Shown here: piece by piece, positions 10,223 to 24,615 of the stretch | How the letters are laid out: each line of letters begins with the position of its first letter | Numbering within the stretch: the stretch's first letter is position 1 | DNA from: Protonemura montana | Lineage: Eukaryota; Arthropoda; Insecta; Plecoptera; Nemouridae | Assembly (NCBI GenBank): GCA_947568835.1 | Contig: OX387612.1 | Coordinates: forward strand, 4,092,001 to 4,156,000 | Direction: 5' to 3' | Length of the DNA: 64,000 bases | Notes under the pieces: generated by a model | The model's database searches: none | The model's input: the letters and a program-made list of their open reading frames with translations, nothing else | What the model was told of the DNA's origin: nothing | Made by a program: the position numbers and the translations under genes

Positions 10223-10900
10223 TTAACTTTAGTTATCACCTGTCTCATAATCACCCAATCATCCCTCGGTGATATTTATGATAAGCATAGCGAGCGAATC
10301 GAGAGTTACAATTTCACTTACTCTAGAAAAAAATAATTTGTGTGCGTGTGTGTGTTTTTTCGCATTTTTGGTTTTTTTCGCATTTTTTTGCGCTCTACTG
10401 GCCTGATCTGATTTGAACGAGATTGGCAGAGCGCAATTTTGTGTTTGATCCACTGCGCTTTCAGCAAAATCAGATAAAGAGTTTTACAACACTTCAAACT
10501 TAACAAAAATGTTCAGATTTTGTATAAACGTTGCACCGCCAAAAGCGTTTGCAGTCAGACGCGCCGGTGCAACAACCACAATTCAGAGTTCATCCAGATC
10601 AATGAACTGCAGTCCCGACTGCAGTCTGCGTAAGAAACAACACATGGTTCGGGAAATTGTTGCATTTTTGACTGCATTATAAACTGGTGACCCGTGGACT
10701 GGTTACCGGGCGACCGCCATTTGCGACCGGCACCAAAGCAAAACGAGTTTTCGGCTTTGAATAGCAGTGGAGTCTCGTATTTAAAGACATTATCGCTTGA
10801 AATATCGCCGTCTTTAATGTCCAGGCTTGCAGATTCTTTCAAAATAAGTTACCTGGACCAAAACTATGTTCGCTCTCAGCAAAGATTCAAACTTGATTTC

Positions 10901-11690
10901 TTTGCGTGGAGCGAAACAAGCACCCTGTCACGGAATGTCCAGCACAAAGGGCGACGGTGACTGCCGCTCCTTTGCGTGGAGCGAAACAAGCACCCTGTCA
11001 CGGAATGTCCAGCACAGAGGCGACGGCGAGTGTCCGCTTCTTTGCGTGGAGCGAAACAAGCACCCTGTCACGAACTGTCCAGCACAAAGGGCGACGGCGA
11101 CTGCCGCTCCTTTGCGTGGAGCGAAACAAGCACCCTGTCACGAACTGTCCAGCACAGAGGCGACGGCGAGTGTCCGCTTCTTTGCGTGGAGCGAAACAAG
11201 CAGCCTGTCACGAACTGTCCAGCACAGAGGCGACGGCGAGTGTCCGCTCCTTTGCGTGGAGCGAAACAAGCACCCTGTCACGGAATGTCCAGCACAAAGG
11301 GCGACGGTGACTGCCGCTCCTTTGCGTGGAGCGAAACAAGCACCCTGTCACGGAATGTCCAGCACAGAGGCGACGGCGAGTGTCCGCTTCTTTGCGTGGA
11401 GCGAAACAAGCAGCCTGTCACGAACTGTCCAGCACAGAGGCGACGGCGAGTGTCCGCTCCTTTGCGTGGAGCGAAACAAGCACCCTGTCACGGAATGTCC
11501 AGCACAAAGGGCGACGGTGACTGCCGCTCCTTTGCGTGGAGCGAAACAAGCACCCTGTCACGGAATGTCCAGCACAATGGGGCAACGGCGACTGCCGCTC
11601 CTTTGCGTGGAGCGAAACAAGCACCCTGTCACGAACTGTCCAGCACAGAGGCGACGGCGAGTGTCCGCTCCTTTGCGTAGAGCGAAACAA
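10901..11690 (+). repeat. 70-bp minisatellite carrying repeated TTGCGTG sites
   Basis: There are eleven units of 70 bases (starts near 10901, 10971, 11041 and so on), plus a degenerate twelfth with GCGTAG. Each full unit contains CTTTGCGTGGAGCGAAACAA. TTGCGTG is the core of the xenobiotic response element bound by AHR/ARNT, and GCGTG also fits the hypoxia element, so the array may be a bHLH-PAS enhancer. It ends about 85 bases before a TATA box. It has no stop in any forward frame, but 70 is not a multiple of 3 and the three frames encode the same words shifted, so it is not a gene. Confidence 0.92.
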
Positions 11691-11773
11691 GCGTCGGTTT
11701 AGGCGTCTTAATGAATGTTTTAGTCACGATTGAATTGGCCCGGTCAGTGACCAAACGACCCTGGCCCGGAGAG

Positions 11774-11817: not shown

Positions 11818-14800
11818 ATGGACGGTTGGAGGAAGGTAAGTTTTCCAAAATCTTACATTTATTTTTGCGAATCACCACGCCAAATTGGGCAGGAGGTTGA
11901 CAATTGGGTTGACAATTGGCGTACTAGGATGCAATTGGGTCGTGGTACGGTTCCGTTTTGAGCGTGTTTGATTCTTTTCAAGCGACTGAAATTTCCCAGG
12001 GGTGGTCAGGATCATTGGTCTCATTGATCAAGGACAACTGTGTGAGGATTAAACTTTTTATAACCAACAGTACCTACCAAGGACAGATTAGACTAGGATT
12101 TCGGGAACCCAGTCAGTCACCTTGATTGATCCTTTCAAGTCGGTTGTTGTCAATCTGTTTACATTGTAGCCTCAAAATGTCCTCTTGCATAGAAAATACG
12201 CACCAAGTCACTACAATATCTTCAAAAATTTTAGAGTGTCAGTTCTCTATTGAATTTCGAAGAAGTTAGTAATTCGATATAATTACTCATAGAAAATTAA
12301 TTGATTATTGATTGATTATTATTATTGATTGACGCACTGTTTTGACAATTGGCCCTGCGGCACTGGTCTAAAGACGTCGCTGAATGAGCGGGTGATTGTG
12401 AGGATGATGATAAACCTAACCTAGCCTAGAAGGGAGGAGGTGAATCCAGGTGCCGGCACGTAGCCTATATCTGTCAAAGAGCACCGAGGGGACCACCGGC
12501 TTAATGTCCCTTTCGAAGGACGGTACAACGCGAGCAGAAGAATTCCTCCACAAATACATGCTATCGAGAGGTTGATAAGCAAGGCGAATGAAGTTGCTAT
12601 AGTAACTTTCATCCCTCCAACCTCTCTCCCGAACAGAACTGGTCATGTGTATGATGGCCACTCATCCAATACCTGACTCAGCGCAGTTTAGCTTAACTTT
12701 CATCTCTCCAACCTCTCTCCCGAACAGAACTAGTCATGTGTATGATGGTCACCCATCCAATACCTGACTCAGCGCAGTGTTGCTTAACTTCGGTGATCTC
12801 ACGAGAACCAGTGTTTTCATTAAGCCAAACCGTTCGGTACTCATAGAAAAGAAAAATTTCATAGCGTTTCGTGAAATCTTTGCGTTGCGAAATAATAGAA
12901 TACATCAAAAGACTTTAAGTGACCTAGGGGTATATTTTAATGGGAGAATTGATTCCCGAGAACTTCATTTATGAGAACCACACATTCCCATAGTTTCGCG
13001 AGTTGGAAACACAGGTTCTCGTGATTACACCAAAGTTTAGCAACATTGCGCTGGGTCGGTTATTGGATGAGTGGCCATCATATAAATGGTCAACTTCATT
13101 CGCCCTGCTTCAATCTCTCGACAGTATGGCTTAGTGGAGGAATCCTGTTGTTCGCGCTGTACCGTCCTTCGGAAGATACGTTAAGCTGGTGACCTCCAAG
13201 AACATTTAGAGACCACCGGATTAATTTCCCTTCCCAAAGAAAGTACAACTCAAACAATAGAATTCCTCCGTTAATCTATGCTTTAAAGAGGTTGATAAAA
13301 AAGACGAACAAAGTCCGTAACGGAAATCCCTCAAACCTCATTATCAAATTACATATACTGCAATCCCTCCATCAACCCTTTGTAATTATAATGGCAATTG
13401 TCCCTTTCAGCACTGATTTGATGATCAAATCGGTATGAAGGAACAACCACTGAATAATTATTAGTATTGACGAGCGTAGCAATTGACCAATTTGTTTTAA
13501 GTTTTGTTGTAGTTAAGTTGTTGTTAAGTGCGTTTGATGTGTTTAATTTTTCTGACGCTAAATTCAAAGTGGCGCTGATTTAGGCTGACGACGGCTTGGT
13601 ACTTTCAAAATGCTCAAGACTAAATTTTAAAGGTTCCTGTTCACAGATAGCGCTGAGCGCGTTGGCGCTGCTGACGCTGGGGGCCGCTGTAGATGGCCGG
13701 GAGATCGAAAAGCCAGAGAGCTTCATCAACGGGACGAACCTTCTGCAAAACTTTTTAAACTCGATCAATATCACTGACCACAGGTACACGCCGAGAGGAT
13801 TATTCTACTGTGTCCTCGAAACTCATCCTTTAAAGGAACATTTACCCTTCAAAATAAATTTTACCATAGATTTAGAAGATTTAATAATAGCATTTGGTTT
13901 ATGAAAATAAACTCATGTGCCCACGGCAGTCCGTGCAGAAATTGCTAAAGTCCGCGTTTTTCGGCTTGGGTGCTTAGATAACAAACTCCCGTAAGAAATA
14001 ACCTATAGTGCTTTTTCGACCCCTAGCACCTAGACAAACCTCTATTGAGAGGAATACTCTCAAGATGGCGGACTCTGACAAGTCGTGTCGTGAGTCGCTC
14101 TCTGAAAAAGTGTGGTATTTCAAGGATATGTGTGTAGTGGACCTAAGAAAAGAATGTGAGAGATTGGGACTGGCGAAAAGAGGAAACAAAGAAGATCTGT
14201 GCGAGAGACTAAAAGCTGCAATTATAGATGAAAATAGCGAGGAAGGAGAAGAAGAAGAAGAGGGCGTAGTCGGTAAGCAGCACGATACCCGTCATGCACA
14301 CGTCATACAGCAGCTCCATACTCTACTAATAGAGAAAGAAAAGCTGGTGGAGGAGAAGGAAAAAAGAATTTGCAACCTAGAAGAAATAATCTTCCTCCTA
14401 AAAGCTAATAATGCTCGTACAAATGGAGAGGCTCACGCTGCTAACCAAACTCACGCTGCAAACCAAACTGACAAAGGAGGTACACAACCTCCAAACGGAC
14501 ACGGACGCAACATAATGGCGGGAAACGTAGGGGATATGGTACGACGAATTGAGACGCCCCGTAAGGAAGAAAGGTGGACACGCCAGAGTAAGTCGGCTAC
14601 TGACAAGGATACTGACAAGCAGGAATACTCAAATGCACACCAAAGTGAAATTCATAAGACGCAGAACTCTCATAGCAATAGCAGTTATGGGCATACCGAA
14701 AAAGAAGTACGAGATGAAAAATACAGGAGACTGCTGGCAAGAAAGAAGTTTGGAACGGAAGAAGAGAAGACAGAAACCGAGAGTGGGCCAGTGTTTAAAC

Positions 14801-17800
14801 CAGGTCAAGTGATGGTAGTGGGTGACTCGATGCTCTGGGGGGCAAGTGACCTGTGCAAGCGAAAGGGATGTGATGTTACTGTATACCCAGGTATAAGAGT
14901 GAACGACCTAGCTAAACAGCTGTGCGAGAAACAAAACGTTGTCAGTGAGCCGGAGGTACTTGTCCTTCATGTAGGGACAAACAACATCCAGAAGAGATCG
15001 AAAGTTCATCTCATCTCCGAGCTCGACCAACTGATGGACACGGTCAAGGTAAAGTGGGGCAAAACGAAGTGGGTGATAGGTGGGCTAGTACACAGGACGA
15101 ATGTGTTTGATTCCACGATGGACAAACTTAACGAGGGGATAAACTGGCTTTGCGAAGAGAGAGATGTCACTTTCTATGACCCCAACCTCAAAATCACAGA
15201 GCAAGACCTCGCCCGAGATGGACTACATCTAAACAAAAGGGGTGGAATACTATTGGGGCAGCTAATAGTTGAAAAAACTGAAGAGTCGCTATCAGAATAG
15301 CAATTAATACTAGAAAAGACAGAGCACGAAATTAGTTCAGAAGAGAAGACTGCAAAAGAAACAAGAACAGGAGAGAAGTCTGAGAAAGGAACAAGATTAG
15401 GCGAGAGGACTGAGATCGAAACAAGAACAGGAGAGACGCCAAGCGAAGAAGTAAAGAACAGGCAACAGGCGAAACGACCAGCTTTGAACACCGAGGTAGC
15501 GGCAAGTAGGATATTCTATACTAACATACAATGTCTCCGAAATAAAATTGATAAGGTAGAAACGGAAATGCGGCTACTAGAGCCCTCAGTTATCTGTATG
15601 ACGGAGCATTGGCTTAGAAAGGAAGAGGTTAACAGTACTACTATAGATGGGTATGTCCCGGTCAGTGTGTTCTGCAGGGAAGGAAAGAAAAACGGAGGGG
15701 TGATTATTTATGTAAGATCAAACGTCAGGGCATGTGCCTCCATAAACTTGGATGCCTTCATAAGAGAGCTGCACTGTGAAGCAGCAGGTGTCACTTTTAA
15801 TGTTGTGGGGGAGACGTTTAAGTTGGTTGGAATCTATAGGTCTCCACAAGGCGACTTTAAAATATTTATGGCAGGTCTTAGCGGTATTTTAGACGCTATT
15901 ACGAGAAATAAGGCAAATATTGTTATATGTGGTGATTTCAATACGGACTTCAGCACTAATTCAGCTAATACACTAACTATTGTAAATCTGTTTAAAGCGT
16001 ACGGCCTATCCATGACGGTGTCCACGCCAACAAGGACAACGGTCGGTTCCGCGACCTGTATAGATAATATTTTTACTAATCTAGATCTAAACGAGACAGC
16101 CAGTAGTCAGGTAGTGGAGCTAGGCTTGGCAGATCACAGCAGTATTGTCCTTAACATAAATGGCAAGGCAGAGCCTAAAAAGAACATAATCACTGTTAAA
16201 CGAACCTATACGAAACAACAAAAGGACCAGTTCTTGCTGGAGCTGAGTTCAGTTTGCTGGGAGTCTGTCTTCCGCCTGCAGACAGTAAACGATATGTTCA
16301 ATGAGTTCTTTGATATATTTGGAAAGATCTTTGACAAGTGTTTCCCGGCAAAACAAAAGCGGTCACTAATCGGTACTCGCACGACAAAACAGAAATGGTT
16401 CACTCCCGAGCTGAAACGGTCGTCAGACCTTGTCAAGCATGCTTACCATAGGTACAAACAAGGAGGGTTCGACGATACATCATATGAGTGGTTTGTGGAA
16501 GCGAGGCGGATCTATTCCCGCAAGATTAGGAAAGCCAAAAAAGATTATTACGAAGACATGCTGGCAAATGCACCCAATAAAGCGAAGGTGGCGTGGGACA
16601 TTATAAAGGGGGAACAAAATCATAAAAGTAGGTCAGGGCCGGAGGATATTGAAATCGAAGAGGGCCCAGATCTGATTACGTCTCAGTTAGATGTGGCGAA
16701 TAGATTTAACGAATACTTCTCCACGATGACAGACTCACTACTAGAATCACAAAACCCAGTCGCGACTAGTGAGAGTGTAGGACCACGTAGTACCATTGAT
16801 CGGCATAACACGAGAGCTGTAAATAAAACTATCTTCCTGGATCCAGTCTCTTCGGCGGAATTTTTTAAGCTGGTGGAAAAAGTATGCCGTAAAAAATCGG
16901 CAGGGATCGATCAGATACCCGGACACGTAATTAAATATGCAGGGATTTATATTATGGAACCACTGACACATATAATGAATGAATCGTTTGTTCAGGGGAC
17001 TTTTCCGGATGCGCTAAAAATTAGTAAAGTGGTGCCCATCTTCAAGAAGGGCGATAGGGCCAAAAAGGAAAACTATAGGCCGATTGCCCTAGCATCGGTC
17101 TTTGCTAAGCTATTCGAATTAGCCTTCTGTAATAGATTGCTATCCTTCGCAAATAAACATAAGATCATTAACAACAAACAACACGGTTTCTTAAAAGGTA
17201 AATCCACCACGTCGGCACTTGTGGACCTCGTAACAAATGTACTGCATGCACTGGATAAGAAGGAGGACGTAATATGTCTACTATATGACTATAGCATGGC
17301 CTTTAATACCGTGAACCACAAGATCCTCCTAAATTGCCTCCAGGAGGCGGGGATCGCAGGAAACGCCAACAATTGGGTACAATCCTTTCTAGAAGGTCGT
17401 AAGCAAGTTGTGGTCCTGTCTGGACCGCAGGGTCCCGTAATCTCAGATGTTAGGATGGTGCACACAGGGGTTCCTCAAGGAAGCTCCCTGTCGCCGCTGC
17501 TGTTCATTTTATACACCAATAACTTACCTAATTGCCTCGATATCGGGAATCTAACAATGTACGCGGATGACACCTCGCACGTGATAAGCGGGGACAGTAA
17601 AGAGGTGGTCGCACTTGCCAACACCGCGGTGGACAAAATGCAACACTTCAGTGCGTCCCACGAACTGATACTAAATGCCAAAAAGACGGTCTTTATGAAA
17701 TTTGTAAATAAAAAAAAGGCTATATCCAGCAGTCCACTAATCCGTCTGGAGAGTAGAAGTCTGCATGAAGTCGAGAACGCTCAAGTCTTGGGTATCCAGA

Positions 17801-20800
17801 TAACCAGCACTCTGGACTGGGAGAGACATGTGTCACATGTGGCGGCAAAAGTAGCCAGCGGTTGTTTCCTTGTGAAGAAAATGATGAAAATAGTAAACAT
17901 AAAAGCCGCAAAACTGGTGTACTATACACATGTACAGTCGCATCTACAATACGGGGTAATTTTATGGGGTGACTCGCGGTACGCCGGTAGACCATTTAAG
18001 CTCCAAAAACGAGCAATCCGCACGCTGGCAGGAGCAAGCTGGGATCCCTGTGCCACAGTGTACTATAAGGACTCGTGTCGACCATTTTTTAAACAATTTA
18101 ATGTTCTACCTCTGCCTTGCCTGTACATCTTCTACTGTATAATGTTCGTCGTACAAAATGATTGCAGATCACAAGCAAGTCAGAAGAGTAGAAGTACCCG
18201 GCACACAAATGTATTAACCTTGCCGAGGTATAGACTAAAAAAGGTGACAGAAGGGCCGTTATATGCAGGCGCTAAACTTCTAAACGCCCTGCCTGAACGC
18301 ATTAAAGTAATACAGGATCGGTCCTTCAGGACGAGACTCAGAGAGTTTTTAATGGACAACTGCTTCTACAGCGTAAAGGAATTCTATAATTTCTAGACTT
18401 GTTATTTTAGATGTATTGTAGATGTACTTACTTATTTATTAGTATTTATTATTATTATTTTTTCTTTTTTTCTTTTGTATTTTCTTTCTATTTGTAAATG
18501 TTTATCTTTGTAAATCTTTGTAAATGTAACACACCATGAACATCATGACTGTCTATATATCCCTAGGGACAAAAACCGACAATAAATTATTATTATTATT
18601 ATTATTATAATCAGATCAAATTCAAATAATTTTAGCATAGTCCTCCATCCTTTCTCTGTGATGAAATAATTTGGCTTTATGATACGATAATTTGTTTAGC
18701 CACGGTAAGCGAACTATCGCAGGTGTGTAATTAGCATGCTGCATATTTTCGTGCAGTGCCGTACTGAGCGGCAGCTACAGCGTTCGGTAGGGAGGGAATA
18801 AACTTTCAGCAACTTTGGCCAACGGAGCACCCGCAGGGAAAGACAGCACTCTACAAGTAAATCATACTCAGCTTGCAGATCGCGACGCGCGAAATGCCAG
18901 AAATCTTAAATAATTAATTGCAAATCTATATTTTCAGAAAATTCTTTTAAATCGATCAATTTCAATTCACATTACAGTTACAAATCTATGGTAAAAATGT
19001 TTGAAGGGTAATGCCCCATTAAGGAATGAAGATGGGGCTGGACACTTAAGAAGTGAAAATATTTTACATATATCTAAACGAACCAACTCAAACAATCTAC
19101 TTATTTACCAAAATAATTGTTATCAAACCCCTAATCTACAAAGTGATGACCGATTTTCATCAAGACTGGTGATACTAGTTTCTGAAGTCTTCGCACATTT
19201 TCAAAAACTTTCTTCATTCCCATGCTACAGTTAAGTAACTTCCATTTCTTAGGCCAACTTTAAAGGTTTAGACATAGGTTCTGATCCAACTGCGGTTAGT
19301 ACGTAGGACCAGCATCCAGTATCCGGTTCTTAACCCGACCCCTCCAATTAAGGCGTACAATTTTGTCCCCAGCTTTCTGAACGCCAATCTTCTGGAGAGC
19401 GCAGCGTTGAATACCAACTTGACTCTGAGGCACTGTAATGTTGAAAACCTGGAAGACGAACTACGTTTCACGTTCACCAACCGCAACCTAGGGTACCTCG
19501 GCCTGACGCAGTACTATCTGTACACGCGGCAGCTCGCGCAATTCATCAGCAATGTCATCGCTGACGACATCACTTACATACCGCATGGTAAGCTTTTACC
19601 AATAATAAGCATTTGTCTAGTAAATTAGAGTGATTCAGTCAATGCAATTAGTTGTACAGTAGGTTTGTTTGCCGGCCATGCGTTTTGTACAGACCTTCTT
19701 AAAGAAGTTTTAAAAAGGTCCGTGCAGGCCCCCTTCCAGTGTCTGCAGAAGACAGGCAGCGCCGACAAAGCATAGTGAGAGTATAGAAATCGTTTCAATG
19801 TTTTCGCCTTTTGGCGCAAAACAGCGTACGCACCTTTTTCATTACAAATTAACCACTGAGTAAGTAGGCATGAAGAGTTGATTTCCTTCCCGCCGAAATT
19901 GAGTGTATATTTACTGTATGTGCATTTATTATTTTAAAATATTTGTCTCTTCACATGACGGTAGGAGGGGGGGGGGGGGGTCCCCCCAATCAACCCATAG
20001 GAAAATGATTACCTACATCTAAAAATATTTTGCAATCTTCTCTAACCAACAACACATTGGTAAGGAATGGAAACAAGCCATGCATTTTTAACATGCAGTT
20101 GTGACTTGCTTCAGGGTACTTGTCGTTCTTCGAGAGTGCCGACTCGAAGCTCAAGTACTTCTTGGTCTGGGCGTCTTGGCGCGATGCGTCAGAGGCTTGC
20201 GAAGCGGAAGGAGGCTCATTGTACACTCCCGAGCATTCCGTGGAGCTTCACGCAGTAATGGCGATCTTCTACCCAACCCTTTTGCCCTGGATCAACTGGC
20301 GCAAATCGAATGGTGAGCGTTATAAAGATATTCTGGCTCCAATTTTGAACGAAAGGCTCTGCCATGTTGATGGATTCAACTAAGTTTGTTTACTTTGCAT
20401 CAAAACAATCTGAAGCTACATTTTAGCTTGGTTTTTTTATAATAATAACTTGGCATATGTTTGTTTGATTAGAAGTAATCAATTAATCCAAGTCAAATGG
20501 TTTGCTTGGTGGGATCTCGAAGTTGATTCTTCTCAAGCGGCAAAATAAAACTGCATGGCGCAGTACAATTTACGATCAAAGCCGGATTCAAACACAATGT
20601 TTCAAACACTAACCAACCGATAAGAATATGTTTCCAAAAAAAATTCACTGATAAAGTTAGTGAAATGATTTTGATTTGGCTCAAGCCCCATTCGGTTACA
20701 AGACAGACAACATCGTGACAGACTCCTTTTACTGTTAGTTTTCAGTTATTTACTCCTACAAAATAGAAAATATTAGAACAAAATAGTGCTGGGAAAAATT

Positions 20801-23800
20801 AGAATGTAGATATAGAGTTGATTTAGTTCAGAGCCTGGGCACAACTAAGTCCCTTGCAACAGATGAGAGATTACAAACATTTCTGCGTCAAATTACTAAT
20901 GAACATATATGTTTTCCAGTTGAGGGCGGGCACCGCAAGTCTTGTGGATATTTGCAAGCAGACTACTACGGAGACAGCTATCAATGGGACGATTGCCACC
21001 ATCCACATCCCTACATTTGTGAGACGACTTCTCACCATGCTACCTCTCTACGGACAGAAGTCAAACTCAGCGCTCGTCAAATGGCAAAGGACTTCTGGAG
21101 TTCGATCGAAAACCAATCTAAATCGAAACCAAGGTTCGTTGATTGGGAGCTCATCCTCGAATATGCTGATTCAGCACAGTTTTATCCAAATTGCGGGCCA
21201 TACATGAGTCTACGTTTCCTTCTGTGCCACTCCATTACATATCCACGGATATTTAAAACCTGGGATTAATATGTGTGAATAAATATCTAATGACTAGCTG
21301 TTCTGTTGACAGAGTTCGAAACCCTACGTTCGCAAGGTCGCTTTCTGAAACCAAGAAGGCTGCAGCCAGCACGGCTCCTAAATCCGTTAAGGTTGTCGCC
21401 AGCAAGGCTCCTGAAGCCTCGAAGGCTGTCATCGGCAAGGTGGACAAGACCGCGAATAGGCACGAAGAAGCCGTCTACAGGCTTCCAGGCAGTTCTCGCT
21501 ACGAAGTGACCAGTGTGGGTGAAAACGCCCTTGGCTTTTACTACAACTACATCAAGCGACTCCAGGCGTACGCATACGAGGTTGTTTCGAAGGATATCAC
21601 TTACCTTCCACACGGTGAGCAGAAATCGATATCTTTACAAAAATTAACAATTACCATAAGAAAAGTATTTTGTATCTAAGAGTTCACAAGTGTGACTAAA
21701 ACAAGCTCTTCGAGAATAAGTACCCAATTGACTAGAGTTACTCAAGGTTGATAGATCTAGCAGGAGTAGGAAAATATATTTATTGATTAATTTAGCGATG
21801 CACTGTTTTGACAACTAGCCATGCGGCACTGATCGGATAGCGTCGATGAATGAGTGGGTGATGCTAACTATAATGGTGAACGTAGCCTAGCATTGAAAGG
21901 AGGGGAAACCTGGAAACGGCACGTAGCCTTCTCCGGTCAAGATCACTAGGGGACCAACCTTGTTGCCCCTTCCGCAGGACGGTACAACGCGAACTACATG
22001 ATTTCTTCTCAAATCCATGCTGCAAAGAGGTTGATAAGCAAGGAGAATGATGTTTCGGTGCTAACTTTCTTCCCTCCAACCTCTCTCCCGAATAGAACCA
22101 GTCACTCATACAATACCTGACCCAGAAAAGTGTTGCTTTTAAAACGGTGATCCATCACGCTGAACCTTCTGGTTTCAGCAGTAGAATGCGATACCTGCTA
22201 CAAATCTGACCATGTTTGTTCCTTCAGAGTACCTGTCTTTCGCTGAGGCACCGTACAGGAGTTTCAAGTACTTCCTAGAGAAGAAAACCTTCGAGGAGGC
22301 TTCTCTGGTTTGCGACGAGGATCACGCCAAACTCTACACGATCACGCACTCACTCGATCTTGACTACAAGTTGGCGGCTTTCTACCCGCTTCTCACTCCT
22401 TGGATGGACTTGCGGAAACCTAGTGGTGAGAAATGCAATTATATTTGTCATAATGCCGTTGGTTGGGGTGTTTTCCACTTAATCTGAATGTTTTTATTGT
22501 TTTCACAGTTATTTTCTAAGTTAACCTCGAAGGAAGTGTTTATGCTGGCACGAAATTACTTTTTTTTTACCTACTAGAGTAGTATTGTTTAGTCACGCCG
22601 TTGAGTGTAGGTTATAGGTAGAGTTTCAGCGTCAATATTACAGTTTTTGCGTGAAAGATGACCGCCAAACGACTACCTTACCGACAAAAATGCAGAGTAC
22701 CGGAACGTCACGTTAAGTGGAGCCACTGTCGTATGAAATTTAATTTCGATATTTACAGTAGGTTACTCGCTTTTTAATATCGTTACGTGTATATCAATCG
22801 TTGAGGTAAACATTGATGGAGATTTTATAAGCATAAAAAGTCTCAAAAGCGAGTTAACCTACGAGAAATATCGAAATTAAAATTCATACGACAGTGGCTC
22901 CACTTAACGTGATGTTCCGGTACTCTGCATTTTTGTCGGTAAGGTAGTCATTTGGCGGCCATCTTTCACGCAGAGACTGTAACATTGACGTTGAAACTCT
23001 ACCTATAACCTACACTCAACGGTTATGCGTATAAGACTCGTTACTGAAACATTACTCTCCATTTTCTCCCCCTCAGGTGACGGTGGTCCCGACAGTTGTT
23101 TGTTCCTACAAGCTGAAATCTACGGCCCCAGCGTCCACTGGTGCAACTGCGACAGCAAGCATTACTTCATTTGCGAGAAAAAATCTAGGAGACCACATCC
23201 AGAACCTGAGCCAGAAAACTCTCCTCATCCAGAGACGGAGCCAGAACCAGAGCACGAGCAAGAACTTATTTCGCATTGGCCACCGAAGCCAGAAGCAGAG
23301 CCAGAGCACCTTCCGCACCGACCAAGGCCAGAACCGGAGCCGGAACACCCTCCACATCGACCACCGAGGCCAGAGTATCCTCCACATCGACCACCGAGGC
23401 CAGAGTATCCTCCACATCGACCAAGACCAGAATCGGAGCCGGAAAGTCCTCACCACCGTCCATCAAGGCCGGAACCGGAGCCTGAATATCTTCCACACCG
23501 TCCATCAAGGCCGGAACCGGAACCTGAATATCTTCCACACCGCCCATCAAGGCCGGAACTGGAACCTGGATATCTTCCACACCGCCCATCAAGGCCGGAA
23601 CCGGAACCTGAATATCTTTCACACCGTCCATCAAGGCCGGAACCGGAACCTGAATATCTTCCAGTTCGACCACCGAGGCCGGAACCGGAACCTGAATATC
23701 TTCCACATCGTCCATCGCGGCCGGAACCGGAACCTGGACATCCTCCACATCGTCCACCGAGGCCGGAACCACATCACGACCAGGACATAGTCTTCCAGAT

Positions 23801-24615
23801 TGATGTTATTCTCGACAGATTGAACGACCTTACCCGCATAATAAATGCCGTTGAGAAATCTGGTAAGTTACACTTCAGTGTAGATCCTTTAGCCTTTCAT
23901 TTAATTGTTTGAAGTACAACAAAGTTACAAAATAAAAGCTAAATATGTCAGTTGTCAATGTGTTCTCTAAAAACTAGGACATTTTGTGTAATCTATCTAA
24001 AGCTTGTTAAACCTCAGGGGAAAACTTGACGCCAATGTTTAGGCATTTAGATCCTTTGCATGCGAGTAGCAGACAGCAATGTTTGGAGGAAATAACTCGT
24101 TTTAATTGTTAACAACTATCTTAAAATTTGTCTGCAATGATTGTCGAGGGTCAGCTACTTATTTTGCTGCCCTCACAACCAGGGAAGCCGGTCATTGGGA
24201 ACAAAAATTGGACCTTTAAATGCAAGACATTCAATACAAGCAGGGTGTTCAACTCAGAGTGATCAATTTTATAATTCTTACGGTACAATTAAGGAAACTT
24301 CGAGGGTTTTTAGCTAATATTTTTTGTTTTTTCACAGAGATCCAATCAGAGCTTCGTAACGAGCCATTGGCTCTTATGAAACAAATAATCTCGCTGGGTG
24401 AAAAGAAAGATGCCATCAAGGCTCGGTGGACAGAAATGCCCGCTGCTGAAAAGCTGACTATCACCACCAAGGTAGACAAGTTCAACGAAAATATGAAGAA
24501 AGTGACCAATGATCGGTCATTGCGAAACAAGTACTTCACTGAAATAGTCGGGAAGCGTTCGTTGATCACAGCTGACCTAGAGGAGATGATTATACTCATG
24601 AAGCCTTTCTTTTAA
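11818..24615 (+). CDS. Secreted protein with two C-type lectin-like domains and a Pro/Glu/His repeat
   Basis: Nine exons in continuous phase: 11818-11835, 13647-13783, 19373-19587, 20115-20312, 20920-21133, 21313-21614, 22228-22425, 23077-23862, 24338-24615 (781 residues). The tiny first exon supplies MDGWRK, and exon 2 continues with a hydrophobic run (IALSALALLTLGAA), together forming a signal peptide. Exons 3 and 6 hold a related helical module ending DITY(I/L)PHG. Exons 4-5 and 7-8 each encode a short C-type lectin-like fold. The first carries EACEAEGG, W(I)NWRK, SCGYLQA and a C....YICE end; the second carries WMDLRKPSG, DSCLFLQA and YFICE. No EPN or QPD sugar-binding motif is visible. 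Exon 8 continues into a Pro/Glu/His/Arg repeat (about residues 460-660), and exon 9 encodes a charged helical tail. The module plus lectin pair is an internal tandem duplication. Likely secreted; ligand unknown. Intron 2 contains a LINE. Confidence 0.78.
12103..12290 (-). repeat. Right arm of the large inverted repeat
   Basis: Reverse complement of 10035-10222, with few differences. It lies inside intron 1 of the lectin gene. Confidence 0.85.
12300..12840 (-). mobile_element. 5S-derived SINE, antisense
   Basis: Reading on the minus strand: 5S head (box A and box C words), a second partial head, then a body with GAGAGAGGTTGGAGGGATGA and GTACCGTCCTTCG, and a tail ending near a TTAAACACC-type end with ATT repeats. 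In intron 1 of the lectin gene. Confidence 0.85.
13003..13345. mobile_element. Two truncated SINEs arranged tail to tail
   Basis: 13003-13195 is a SINE copy on the plus strand (head to GTACCGTCCTTCGGAAG), and 13205-13345 matches the body on the minus strand, so the two face each other. Intron 1 of the lectin gene. Confidence 0.7.
14065..15300 (+). CDS. LINE ORF1: SAP domain, coiled coil, SGNH-hydrolase-like domain
   Basis: The chosen ATG is in a good context (CAAGATGG); the frame is open slightly further upstream without an ATG. Near the N terminus, VDLRKECERLGLAKRG matches a SAP DNA-binding motif. An acidic and Lys/Glu-rich region that could form a coiled coil follows. The C-terminal half has the SGNH/GDSL esterase blocks in order: GDSM (14821), GTNN (14974) and DGLHLN (15217). 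Esterase-type ORF1 proteins are known from some CR1/L2-group LINEs, where they act in ribonucleoprotein formation. The frame ends at TAG 15298-15300, but see the readthrough site. Confidence 0.85.
   Translation: MADSDKSCRESLSEKVWYFKDMCVVDLRKECERLGLAKRGNKEDLCERLKAAIIDENSEEGEEEEEGVVGKQHDTRHAHVIQQLHTLLIEKEKLVEEKEKRICNLEEIIFLLKANNARTNGEAHAANQTHAANQTDKGGTQPPNGHGRNIMAGNVGDMVRRIETPRKEERWTRQSKSATDKDTDKQEYSNAHQSEIHKTQNSHSNSSYGHTEKEVRDEKYRRLLARKKFGTEEEKTETESGPVFKPGQVMVVGDSMLWGASDLCKRKGCDVTVYPGIRVNDLAKQLCEKQNVVSEPEVLVLHVGTNNIQKRSKVHLISELDQLMDTVKVKWGKTKWVIGGLVHRTNVFDSTMDKLNEGINWLCEERDVTFYDPNLKITEQDLARDGLHLNKRGGILLGQLIVEKTEESLSE
15298..15306 (+). promoter_or_regulatory. Predicted stop-codon readthrough site (TAG CAA TTA)
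   Basis: ORF1 stops with TAG followed at once by CAATTA, an exact match to the UAG-CAR-YYA context that drives about 5% readthrough in tobacco mosaic virus. The frame stays open from 15301 through the linker into ORF2, and no ATG in any forward frame lies between the stop and the start of the endonuclease domain. Confidence 0.75.
15301..18396 (+). CDS. LINE ORF2: AP endonuclease and reverse transcriptase
   Basis: The frame is the same as ORF1 and open from directly after its TAG. A roughly 65-residue Glu/Lys/Thr/Arg-rich linker (EKTE, ERTE and TRTGE words) leads to the endonuclease: NIQCLRNK near 15517, CMTEHWL, GDFNTDF at 15931 and LADHS near 16126. The reverse transcriptase follows, with GVPQGSSLSPLLF and YADD (17560-17571). 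The C-terminal end has an HLQYGVILWG motif and a QKRAIR motif typical of Jockey/CR1-type elements. The catalytic motifs are present and there is no internal stop. The first in-frame ATG is inside the endonuclease, so independent initiation would remove its start; readthrough is the simplest expression route. Confidence 0.88.
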   Translation, partial: QLILEKTEHEISSEEKTAKETRTGEKSEKGTRLGERTEIETRTGETPSEEVKNRQQAKRPALNTEVAASRIFYTNIQCLRNKIDKVETEMRLLEPSVICMTEHWLRKEEVNSTTIDGYVPVSVFCREGKKNGGVIIYVRSNVRACASINLDAFIRELHCEAAGVTFNVVGETFKLVGIYRSPQGDFKIFMAGLSGILDAITRNKANIVICGDFNTDFSTNSANTLTIVNLFKAYGLSMTVSTPTRTTVGSATCIDNIFTNLDLNETASSQVVELGLADHSSIVLNINGKAEPKKNIITVKRTYTKQQKDQFLLELSSVCWESVFRLQTVNDMFNEFFDIFGKIFDKCFPAKQKRSLIGTRTTKQKWFTPELKRSSDLVKHAYHRYKQGGFDDTSYEWFVEARRIYSRKIRKAKKDYYEDMLANAPNKAKVAWDIIKGEQNHKSRSGPEDIEIEEGPDLITSQLDVANRFNEYFSTMTDSLLESQNPVATSESVGPRSTIDRHNTRAVNKTIFLDPVSSAEFFKLVEKVCRKKSAGIDQIPGHVIKYAGIYIMEPLTHIMNESFVQGTFPDALKISKVVPIFKKGDRAKKENYRPIALASVFAKLFELAFCNRLLSFANKHKIINNKQHGFLKGKSTTSALVDLVTNVLHALDKKEDVICLLYDYSMAFNTVNHKILLNCLQEAGIAGNANNWVQSFLEGRKQVVVLSGPQGPVISDVRMVHTGVPQGSSLSPLLFILYTNNLPNCLDIGNLTMYADDTSHVISGDSKEVVALANTAVDKMQHFSASHELILNAKKTVFMKFVNKKKAISSSPLIRLESRSLHEVENAQVLGIQITSTLDWERHVSHVAAKVASGCFLVKKMMKIVNIKAAKLVYYTHVQSHLQYGVILWGDSRYAGRPFKLQKRAIRTLAGASWDPCATVYYKDSCRPFFKQFNVLPLPCLYIFYCIMFVVQNDCRSQASQKSRSTRHTNVLTLPRYRLKKVTEGPLYAGAKLLNALPERIKVIQDRSFRTRLREFLMDNCFYSVKEFYNF
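18610..19372. other. Rest of lectin-gene intron 2
   Basis: No further gene seen. A strong acceptor (TTTTGTCCCCAG) ends it at 19372. Confidence 0.6.
21780..22145 (-). mobile_element. 5S-derived SINE, antisense, diverged
   Basis: Minus-strand body words (GGTTGGAGGGA, GTTGATAAGCAAGG reverse, GTACCGTCC reverse) and a degraded head. In intron 6 of the lectin gene. Confidence 0.8.
22599..23021. mobile_element. Hairpin MITE family M1, copy 1
   Basis: Nearly the whole 423 bases fold back on themselves. The ends are CGTTGAGTGTAGGTTATAGG and its complement, with arms of about 180 bases around a short loop. It ends 55 bases before exon 8 of the lectin gene. A second copy is at 29715-30140. Confidence 0.9.
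23179..23790 (+). repeat. In-frame 42-bp coding repeat (Pro/Glu/His/Arg)
   Basis: About a dozen 14-residue units of the type HRPSRPEPEPEYLP lie within exon 8 of the lectin gene, preceded by looser PEPE-rich sequence. The repeat keeps frame, which argues for selection on the protein. The alternation of His, Arg and Glu suggests ion or surface binding, but this is inference. Confidence 0.9.

Follow-up and report, generated by a model that had tools for sequence, protein, structure and literature searches.

Candidate TMV-like stop-codon readthrough between ORF1 and ORF2 in LINE retrotransposons of the stonefly Protonemura montana

How a LINE makes a little ORF2 protein from an RNA that serves mainly for ORF1 is an old question and one that, as presented in PMC5972666, has been solved for few elements. 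The question is raised afresh by a LINE in the stonefly Protonemura montana, found in a 64,000-nucleotide stretch of DNA (C15:4092001-4156000; hereafter the window) from a genome of 258 Mb on 34 contigs. In this element, ORF1 and ORF2 share one frame and are parted by a single TAG, after which comes CAATTA. The initial annotation proposed that the polymerase is made by readthrough of this stop, in the manner of tobacco mosaic virus (TMV), and our direct reading of the junction (bases 15298-15306, TAGCAATTA) bears out the arrangement on which that proposal was built.

The features of the element are collected in Table 1. From the ORF1 ATG at 14065 up to 18399, the frame is interrupted only by the TAG at 15298 and a second TAG at 18394, whilst the other two frames of the same stretch contain 102 and 118 stops. 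The first ATG in any frame after the TAG is at 15531 (in another frame), followed by in-frame ATGs at 15568 and 15598, by which point the endonuclease, beginning at around 15511, is already under way; the earlier statement that no ATG lies between the stop and the endonuclease start is therefore correct. The count of 61 sense codons given with it was roughly right for the linker alone, which comes to 70 codons by the present placing of the endonuclease; the whole frame is open for 1031.

Table 1. Features of the LINE in the window (positions counted from the first letter of the window)
Feature	Positions	Strand	Support
Full-length LINE copy	14053..18609	+	Second copy on C1 identical where compared; flanks differ; (TTA)n ends
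Apparent 12-base 5' leader AATACTCTCAAG, abutting the ORF1 ATG	14053..14064	+	Present in both independent copies; upstream identity ends there
ORF1, 411 aa	14065..15300	+	SAP and SGNH/GDSL hydrolase-like domains
SAP domain of ORF1	14125-14223	+	Pfam 34.5 bits, cut-off 23.9
SGNH/GDSL hydrolase-like domain of ORF1	14842-15243	+	Lipase_GDSL_2 30.2 bits, E 7.7e-7, under the cut-off of 32.9
Candidate readthrough signal UAG-CAA-UUA	15298..15306	+	Direct reading; TAG-CAR-YYA or TAG-CAA-CGA in 57/62 related loci
Linker joined to ORF2, without stop or ATG	15301..15510	+	Window reading
ORF2 frame, 1031 codons	15301..18396	+	Pfam: endonuclease and reverse transcriptase
APE-type endonuclease in ORF2	15523-16137	+	Pfam Exo_endo_phos, 44 bits
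Reverse transcriptase in ORF2	17047-17802	+	Pfam RVT_1, 106 bits

That one ORF carries both APE-type endonuclease and reverse transcriptase domains, as found with Pfam, identifies the element as a LINE, and the solved structures closest to ORF2 are chains named LINE-1 ORF2 protein. Metagenome proteins related to ORF1 (P0051-P0055) and to ORF2 (P0001-P0005) are 41-45% and 38-40% identical at the protein level, respectively. CR1-like families are characterised by an esterase (SGNH) ORF1, an APE endonuclease, a reverse transcriptase and a 3' end of short repeats. The window element has the endonuclease, the reverse transcriptase and the short-repeat end, and its ORF1 is SGNH-like at a score just under the Pfam cut-off; from this make-up it is tentatively called CR1-like, although other one-frame families of the genome have a cysteine-rich ORF1 instead.

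The surroundings of the element can be described briefly. By eye, the LINE seems to be intronic, within a host gene that runs in the same direction (window positions 13640-13790 and 19365-20315); one nearby exon weakly matches C-type lectin (17.2 bits, under the cut-off). Elsewhere in the window are a tandem repeat in which three overlapping forward frames are open (10866-11702) and an ORF full of PHRPSRPEPEPEYL-type repeats with no Pfam match (23025-23912). In the wider assembly, COX1, translated with the invertebrate mitochondrial code, matches Protonemura and Nemouridae entries at 100% identity and the other Plecoptera listed at about 96-99%, as expected of a nemourid stonefly. COX1 copies lie on the large contig C4 (C4:5760925-5777755), with one on the small contig C34, and the first C4 copy scores equal to it; the C4 copies could stem from mitochondrial DNA that entered the nuclear genome recently, or be an artefact of assembly.

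A second copy of the LINE is located at approximately C1:32006470-32011028 on the minus strand. It is identical to the window copy at all 2733 bases compared, including 601 of 601 at the junction, and its ORF1 and ORF2 proteins are wholly identical; both copies finish with a (TTA)n tail. Identity begins 12 bases upstream of the ORF1 ATG, with the flank differing from base 14052 outward, and the 5' neighbour of the C1 copy is a CACGTGACC-type satellite. Because the flanks differ, the two copies are two insertions rather than a single duplicated segment, and the window copy is young and probably full-length. Among the matches listed, the same family has three more long pieces without ORF1, plus one pair at 94%. 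An abrupt 5' boundary is seen more widely: in six families (window 14053-14075; L009-L029) the similarity between copies does not start until some 5-14 bases upstream of the ORF1 ATG (about 17 for L013/L014 and 3 for L013/L015), and at those 5' ends all seven read AAGATGGC(G/T/C)G, which closely resembles the TISU/YY1 element. The RNAs of these LINEs may thus carry ultra-short 5' leaders.

Is the stop with its hexamer peculiar to the window copy, or is it a property of a larger group of elements? A protein search with the window ORF1 gave 78 genome matches, of which 50 were examined (30 loci and 20 more fetched). LINEs with a second, cysteine-rich kind of ORF1 were reached through an ORF2 search (45 of 4540 candidates scored) or through ORF1 ends; used as a query in turn, this ORF1 gave 112 matches, from which 30 previously unseen junctions were fetched. 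The two kinds of ORF1 are unrelated. The cysteine-rich proteins of L039, L040, L041 and L057 display CX2CX4HX4C by eye; of the four searched with Pfam, L039 has a zinc knuckle match below threshold, and L040, L047 and L059 have no match. In total, 94 loci were obtained for the junction (L007-L070 and L103-L132). Sixty-two were placed in one-frame families, either by the frames of ORF1 and ORF2 or, where the piece was short or decayed, by kinship to such a family. A further 24 with a readable ORF1 stop lie outside these families (L028, L029, L032-L036, L042, L043, L048-L050, L053, L055, L056, L058 and L060-L067), ORF1 could not be read in four (L037, L038, L044, L068) and four of the 30 last fetched were unusable (L109 was cut short; L128, L129 and L130 are not LINE junctions). 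The 62 include decayed members, L024 in which the endonuclease was not found and L051 which has a TAA within the linker, as well as L023 and L031, whose ORF1 is frame-broken and whose stop was taken from the ORF2 side. One match to a 15-base pattern (L002, C14:3691032) was discarded, there being no LINE at that site. Relatives with DNA context outside this genome were found neither in three scans of viral_contigs nor in one scan of genome_contigs; the DNA evidence throughout is that of a single species.

In 57 of the 62 one-frame loci the stop between the ORFs is TAG followed by CAR-YYA or CAA-CGA. Grouping by sequence sorts these 57 into 27 clusters, of which 25 have YYA and two CGA; one cluster (L016, L017-L022, L023, L045, L046, L052) lumps several families together through repetitive linkers. 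The first set of loci contained the signal in 35 of 36 cases. TAG-CAR-YNA was then predicted beforehand for in-frame junctions, and was found in 22 of the 26 readable new ones. Families related to the window ORF1 have TAG followed by CAATTA, CAATCA, CAACCA, CAACTA or CAGCTA, and those with the cysteine-rich ORF1 use these same five hexamers, with CAACGA in two, so that a single signal connects ORF2 with two kinds of ORF1. The initial annotation had asked whether TAG-CAATTA is kept whilst its neighbours drift: it is, but as a degenerate CAR-YYA (CAA-CGA in two of 27 clusters) rather than as a fixed string.

The five exceptions are isolated copies. In the first set, the decayed L069 has TAA-CAATTA, and in the second L112 has TAA-CAACTA. 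L117 has an earlier TAA, yet retains the in-frame TAGCAATTA. The remaining two have a sense codon at the stop position: TGG in L108, where a TGA five codons later breaks the frame, and TAT in L106, where ORF1 is fused to ORF2 and the open frame is reported at 786 aa. L106 is a natural sense-codon copy, and its close sister L107, which agrees with it ungapped at 174 of the first 200 bases, has the TAG. Sister copies with a sense codon or a variable stop had been named as observations that would speak for a chance mutation; they exist (sense codon in 2/62, TAA in 2/62, earlier TAA in 1/62) but only singly.

The conservation is confined to the signal itself. Across 18 families, the nine bases contain 2.0, 2.0, 2.0, 2.0, 2.0, 1.5, 1.0, 0.65 and 2.0 bits of information, whereas the roughly 60 bases on each side average 0.31 bits and never exceed 0.81, with a mean pairwise identity of 0.31. 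The second codon past the stop specifies Leu, Ser, Pro or Arg but has A as its third base without exception. Since the residue varies while the last A is fixed, and since the flanks are only about 31% identical, selection has acted on the nucleotides, not on the protein. Given the local codon make-up, the chance that 16 families would all bear CAR and then YNA is about 10^-40. The linkers of these 16 families contain no stop in the ORF2 frame (0/964 codons), against 31/948 and 127/948 in the other two frames.

Other junctions in the same genome serve as controls. ORF1 stops outside the one-frame families are never TAG-CAR (0/24; 12 TAA, 9 TGA, 3 TAG), and ORF2 stops, taken from the window and 12 fetched loci of readthrough and other families, are never followed by CAR (0/13; 7 TAA, 4 TGA, 2 TAG). 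Of the 21 other loci whose endonuclease could be located by motif, 19 have ORF2 in the -1 frame; the decayed L055 is +1. The last, L056, alone combines a shared frame for ORF1 and endonuclease with a different stop, TGA-AAAATC, and two further in-frame stops lie ahead of its endonuclease. Several of the -1 junctions have features suggestive of other forms of recoding. L028 and its sister L029 have A_AAA_AAC in register directly 5' of the ORF1 UGA, L042 has U_UUU_UUA 30 bases upstream of the stop and L043 has several such heptamers, and -1 frameshifting is probable at these junctions; no such heptamer was seen in the ORF overlap of L033, L048, L049, L060, L061, L062 or L067. In L048 (~390) and L067 (~327), the ORF1 stop overlaps the ORF2 ATG as ATGA in the -1 frame, an arrangement that looks like stop-start reinitiation.

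The conserved hexamer bears directly on the explanations that could be offered for the TAG. It might be a recent nonsense mutation, CAG to TAG for example, in an element built as a single long ORF; after all, it is a codon within an open frame, and L106 and L108 bear a sense codon at that place. However, the signal is common to loci with barely similar flanks, and the homologous proteins P0051-P0055 likewise finish just past the SGNH domain. Because 27 clusters bear the same signal, a chance mutation is excluded for all practical purposes. Nor is a reassignment of TAG to sense supported, because the window ORF2 itself stops at TAG (18394, context ACTTGT) and because the ORF2 stops of its relatives are of all three kinds, none with CAR. 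The UAG might instead be changed at the RNA level, either by A-to-I editing to a Trp codon, as hepatitis delta virus does with an amber codon, or by removal through splicing with TAG as the acceptor, for which that triplet is suited. Against these, no stable fold was found on the downstream side of the stop, pyrimidines make up 39% of the 20 bases 5' of it across the 27 clusters with no polypyrimidine tract, and neither editing nor splicing would be expected to conserve CAR-YYA; we regard both as very improbable.

A more substantial competitor supposes that ribosomes terminate at the UAG and ORF2 is begun anew, through reinitiation or a nearby non-AUG start, with CAR-YYA serving that purpose. 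According to PMC5972666, SART1 and LINE-1 are elements in which reinitiation has been established or suggested. The AUGA overlaps of L048 and L067, two sister families, provide possible instances in this genome. Moreover, an ATG in frame with ORF2, which the initial annotation had also listed as a point against readthrough, is present between the stop and the endonuclease core (in the linker or at its end) in 11 of 16 families, making internal initiation possible there. The window family and four others, however, have no in-frame ATG ahead of the endonuclease core. The hexamer also goes unexplained: the stop-start families are without CAR-YYA, and we know of no reinitiation signal of that form. 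Restarted translation is thus improbable as a general account of these junctions, although a little less so than events at the RNA level.

We conclude that the ORF2 polymerase of these LINEs is very probably produced by programmed type I (TMV-like) readthrough of the ORF1 UAG, the reading first suggested for the window copy and now supported by the conservation of stop and hexamer across the survey. Ribosomes would initiate close to the 5' end of the RNA, at an ORF1 AUG preceded by only a few nucleotides, and translate ORF1, most of them terminating at the UAG. Under the influence of the CAR-YYA hexamer 3' of the stop, a minority would insert an amino acid by means of a near-cognate tRNA and continue in frame. 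The major product would be ORF1 alone, and the minor product a gag-pol-like fusion of ORF1, linker, endonuclease and reverse transcriptase. Readthrough in the stonefly, its efficiency, the residue inserted and the use of the fusion as the working polymerase in transposition are what we infer from the sequences.

The parallel with the viral signal is close. Type I readthrough as described for TMV (PMC2194720, PMC2754532) involves, as here, a UAG stop, a degenerate hexamer and an in-frame downstream ORF, which in TMV encodes the polymerase, and the viral signal requires no structure. UAG with CAR-YYA is described as acting by itself (PMC2194720). Folding of 90 bases downstream of the stop in 18 families, pseudoknots not being modelled, revealed no stable RNA structure (z -1.2 to +1.9), and a downstream hairpin as the signal is accordingly unsupported; this fits a type I signal, because there the hexamer alone is described as sufficient (PMC2194720). 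In a plant reporter, the TMV region is reported to give 32% readthrough with insertion of Tyr, which is abolished when the C 3' of the stop is changed to G (PMC2754532). An insect virus with a predicted type I signal, UAG-CAA-CUA, has also been described (PMC5127029). The differences are that TMV is a plant RNA virus whereas the present elements are insect LINE retrotransposons, two clusters of which have CAA-CGA.

Amongst retroelements, the gag-pol junction of murine leukaemia virus (MuLV) and the LTR elements SIRE1 and Tca2 likewise link ORFs in frame across a stop. MuLV requires a purine-rich spacer and a pseudoknot, the Tca2 stop is UGA and the stop in SIRE1 precedes an envelope-like ORF. 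All three are retroviruses or LTR elements, in contrast to the LINE in the window. Readthrough in MuLV gag-pol is given as 5% (PMC2194720). Amongst other LINEs, the same need for a second protein from one RNA is answered by stop-start in SART1, reinitiation in LINE-1 and 2A sequences in L1Tc and sea urchin elements, as outlined in PMC5972666; these restart ORF2 or split one chain, and no stop codon is read through in any of them. LINEs and type I readthrough are thus each known, and their union is, as far as we have searched, unreported: in open-licence PMC papers we found no LINE described with a readthrough signal, as the initial annotation had supposed, and no description of a CR1 ORF2 as a readthrough product.

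Did the signal arise once? In a tree of endonucleases from this genome and from metagenomes, several branches of which are long, readthrough families lie scattered amongst other-frame families and both kinds of ORF1 are mixed, with six changes in the SGNH group and seven in the cysteine-rich group. Because of this interspersion, a single origin of the readthrough trait is unsupported. A possible cause is visible at the junctions themselves. L110 and L118 agree at 33 of the 37 bases that lead up to the stop and at 33 of the 36 that follow it, but at only 93 of 285 further on, and part into unrelated ORF2s some 36 bases past the stop; L123 and L124 belong to the same cluster and have differing endonucleases. 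Both pairs point to apparent exchange of ORF1 and ORF2 modules beside the readthrough signal. ORF1 with its signal may be a module swapped between ORF2 lineages, or the reverse, and this could account for the interspersed tree.

If the fusion is indeed made, the polymerase of these LINEs would be an ORF1 fusion, with a bearing on RNP assembly. Since the viral signal is short, portable and well studied, its presence in LINEs makes the ratio of ORF1 to ORF2 something that can be tested and tuned in a reporter, and a host genome with dozens of natural type I sites would provide a panel for studies of readthrough in animals. A wider view, which we put forward tentatively and which may well prove too broad, is of a LINE radiation using the recoding devices of retroviruses and RNA viruses, with at least 27 clusters relying on UAG readthrough, others probably on -1 frameshifting and a few on stop-start, and with the junction serving as a swap point for unrelated ORF1 and ORF2 modules. 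On that view, a gag-pol-like fusion polymerase would be an ancient solution to which LINEs have turned time and again.
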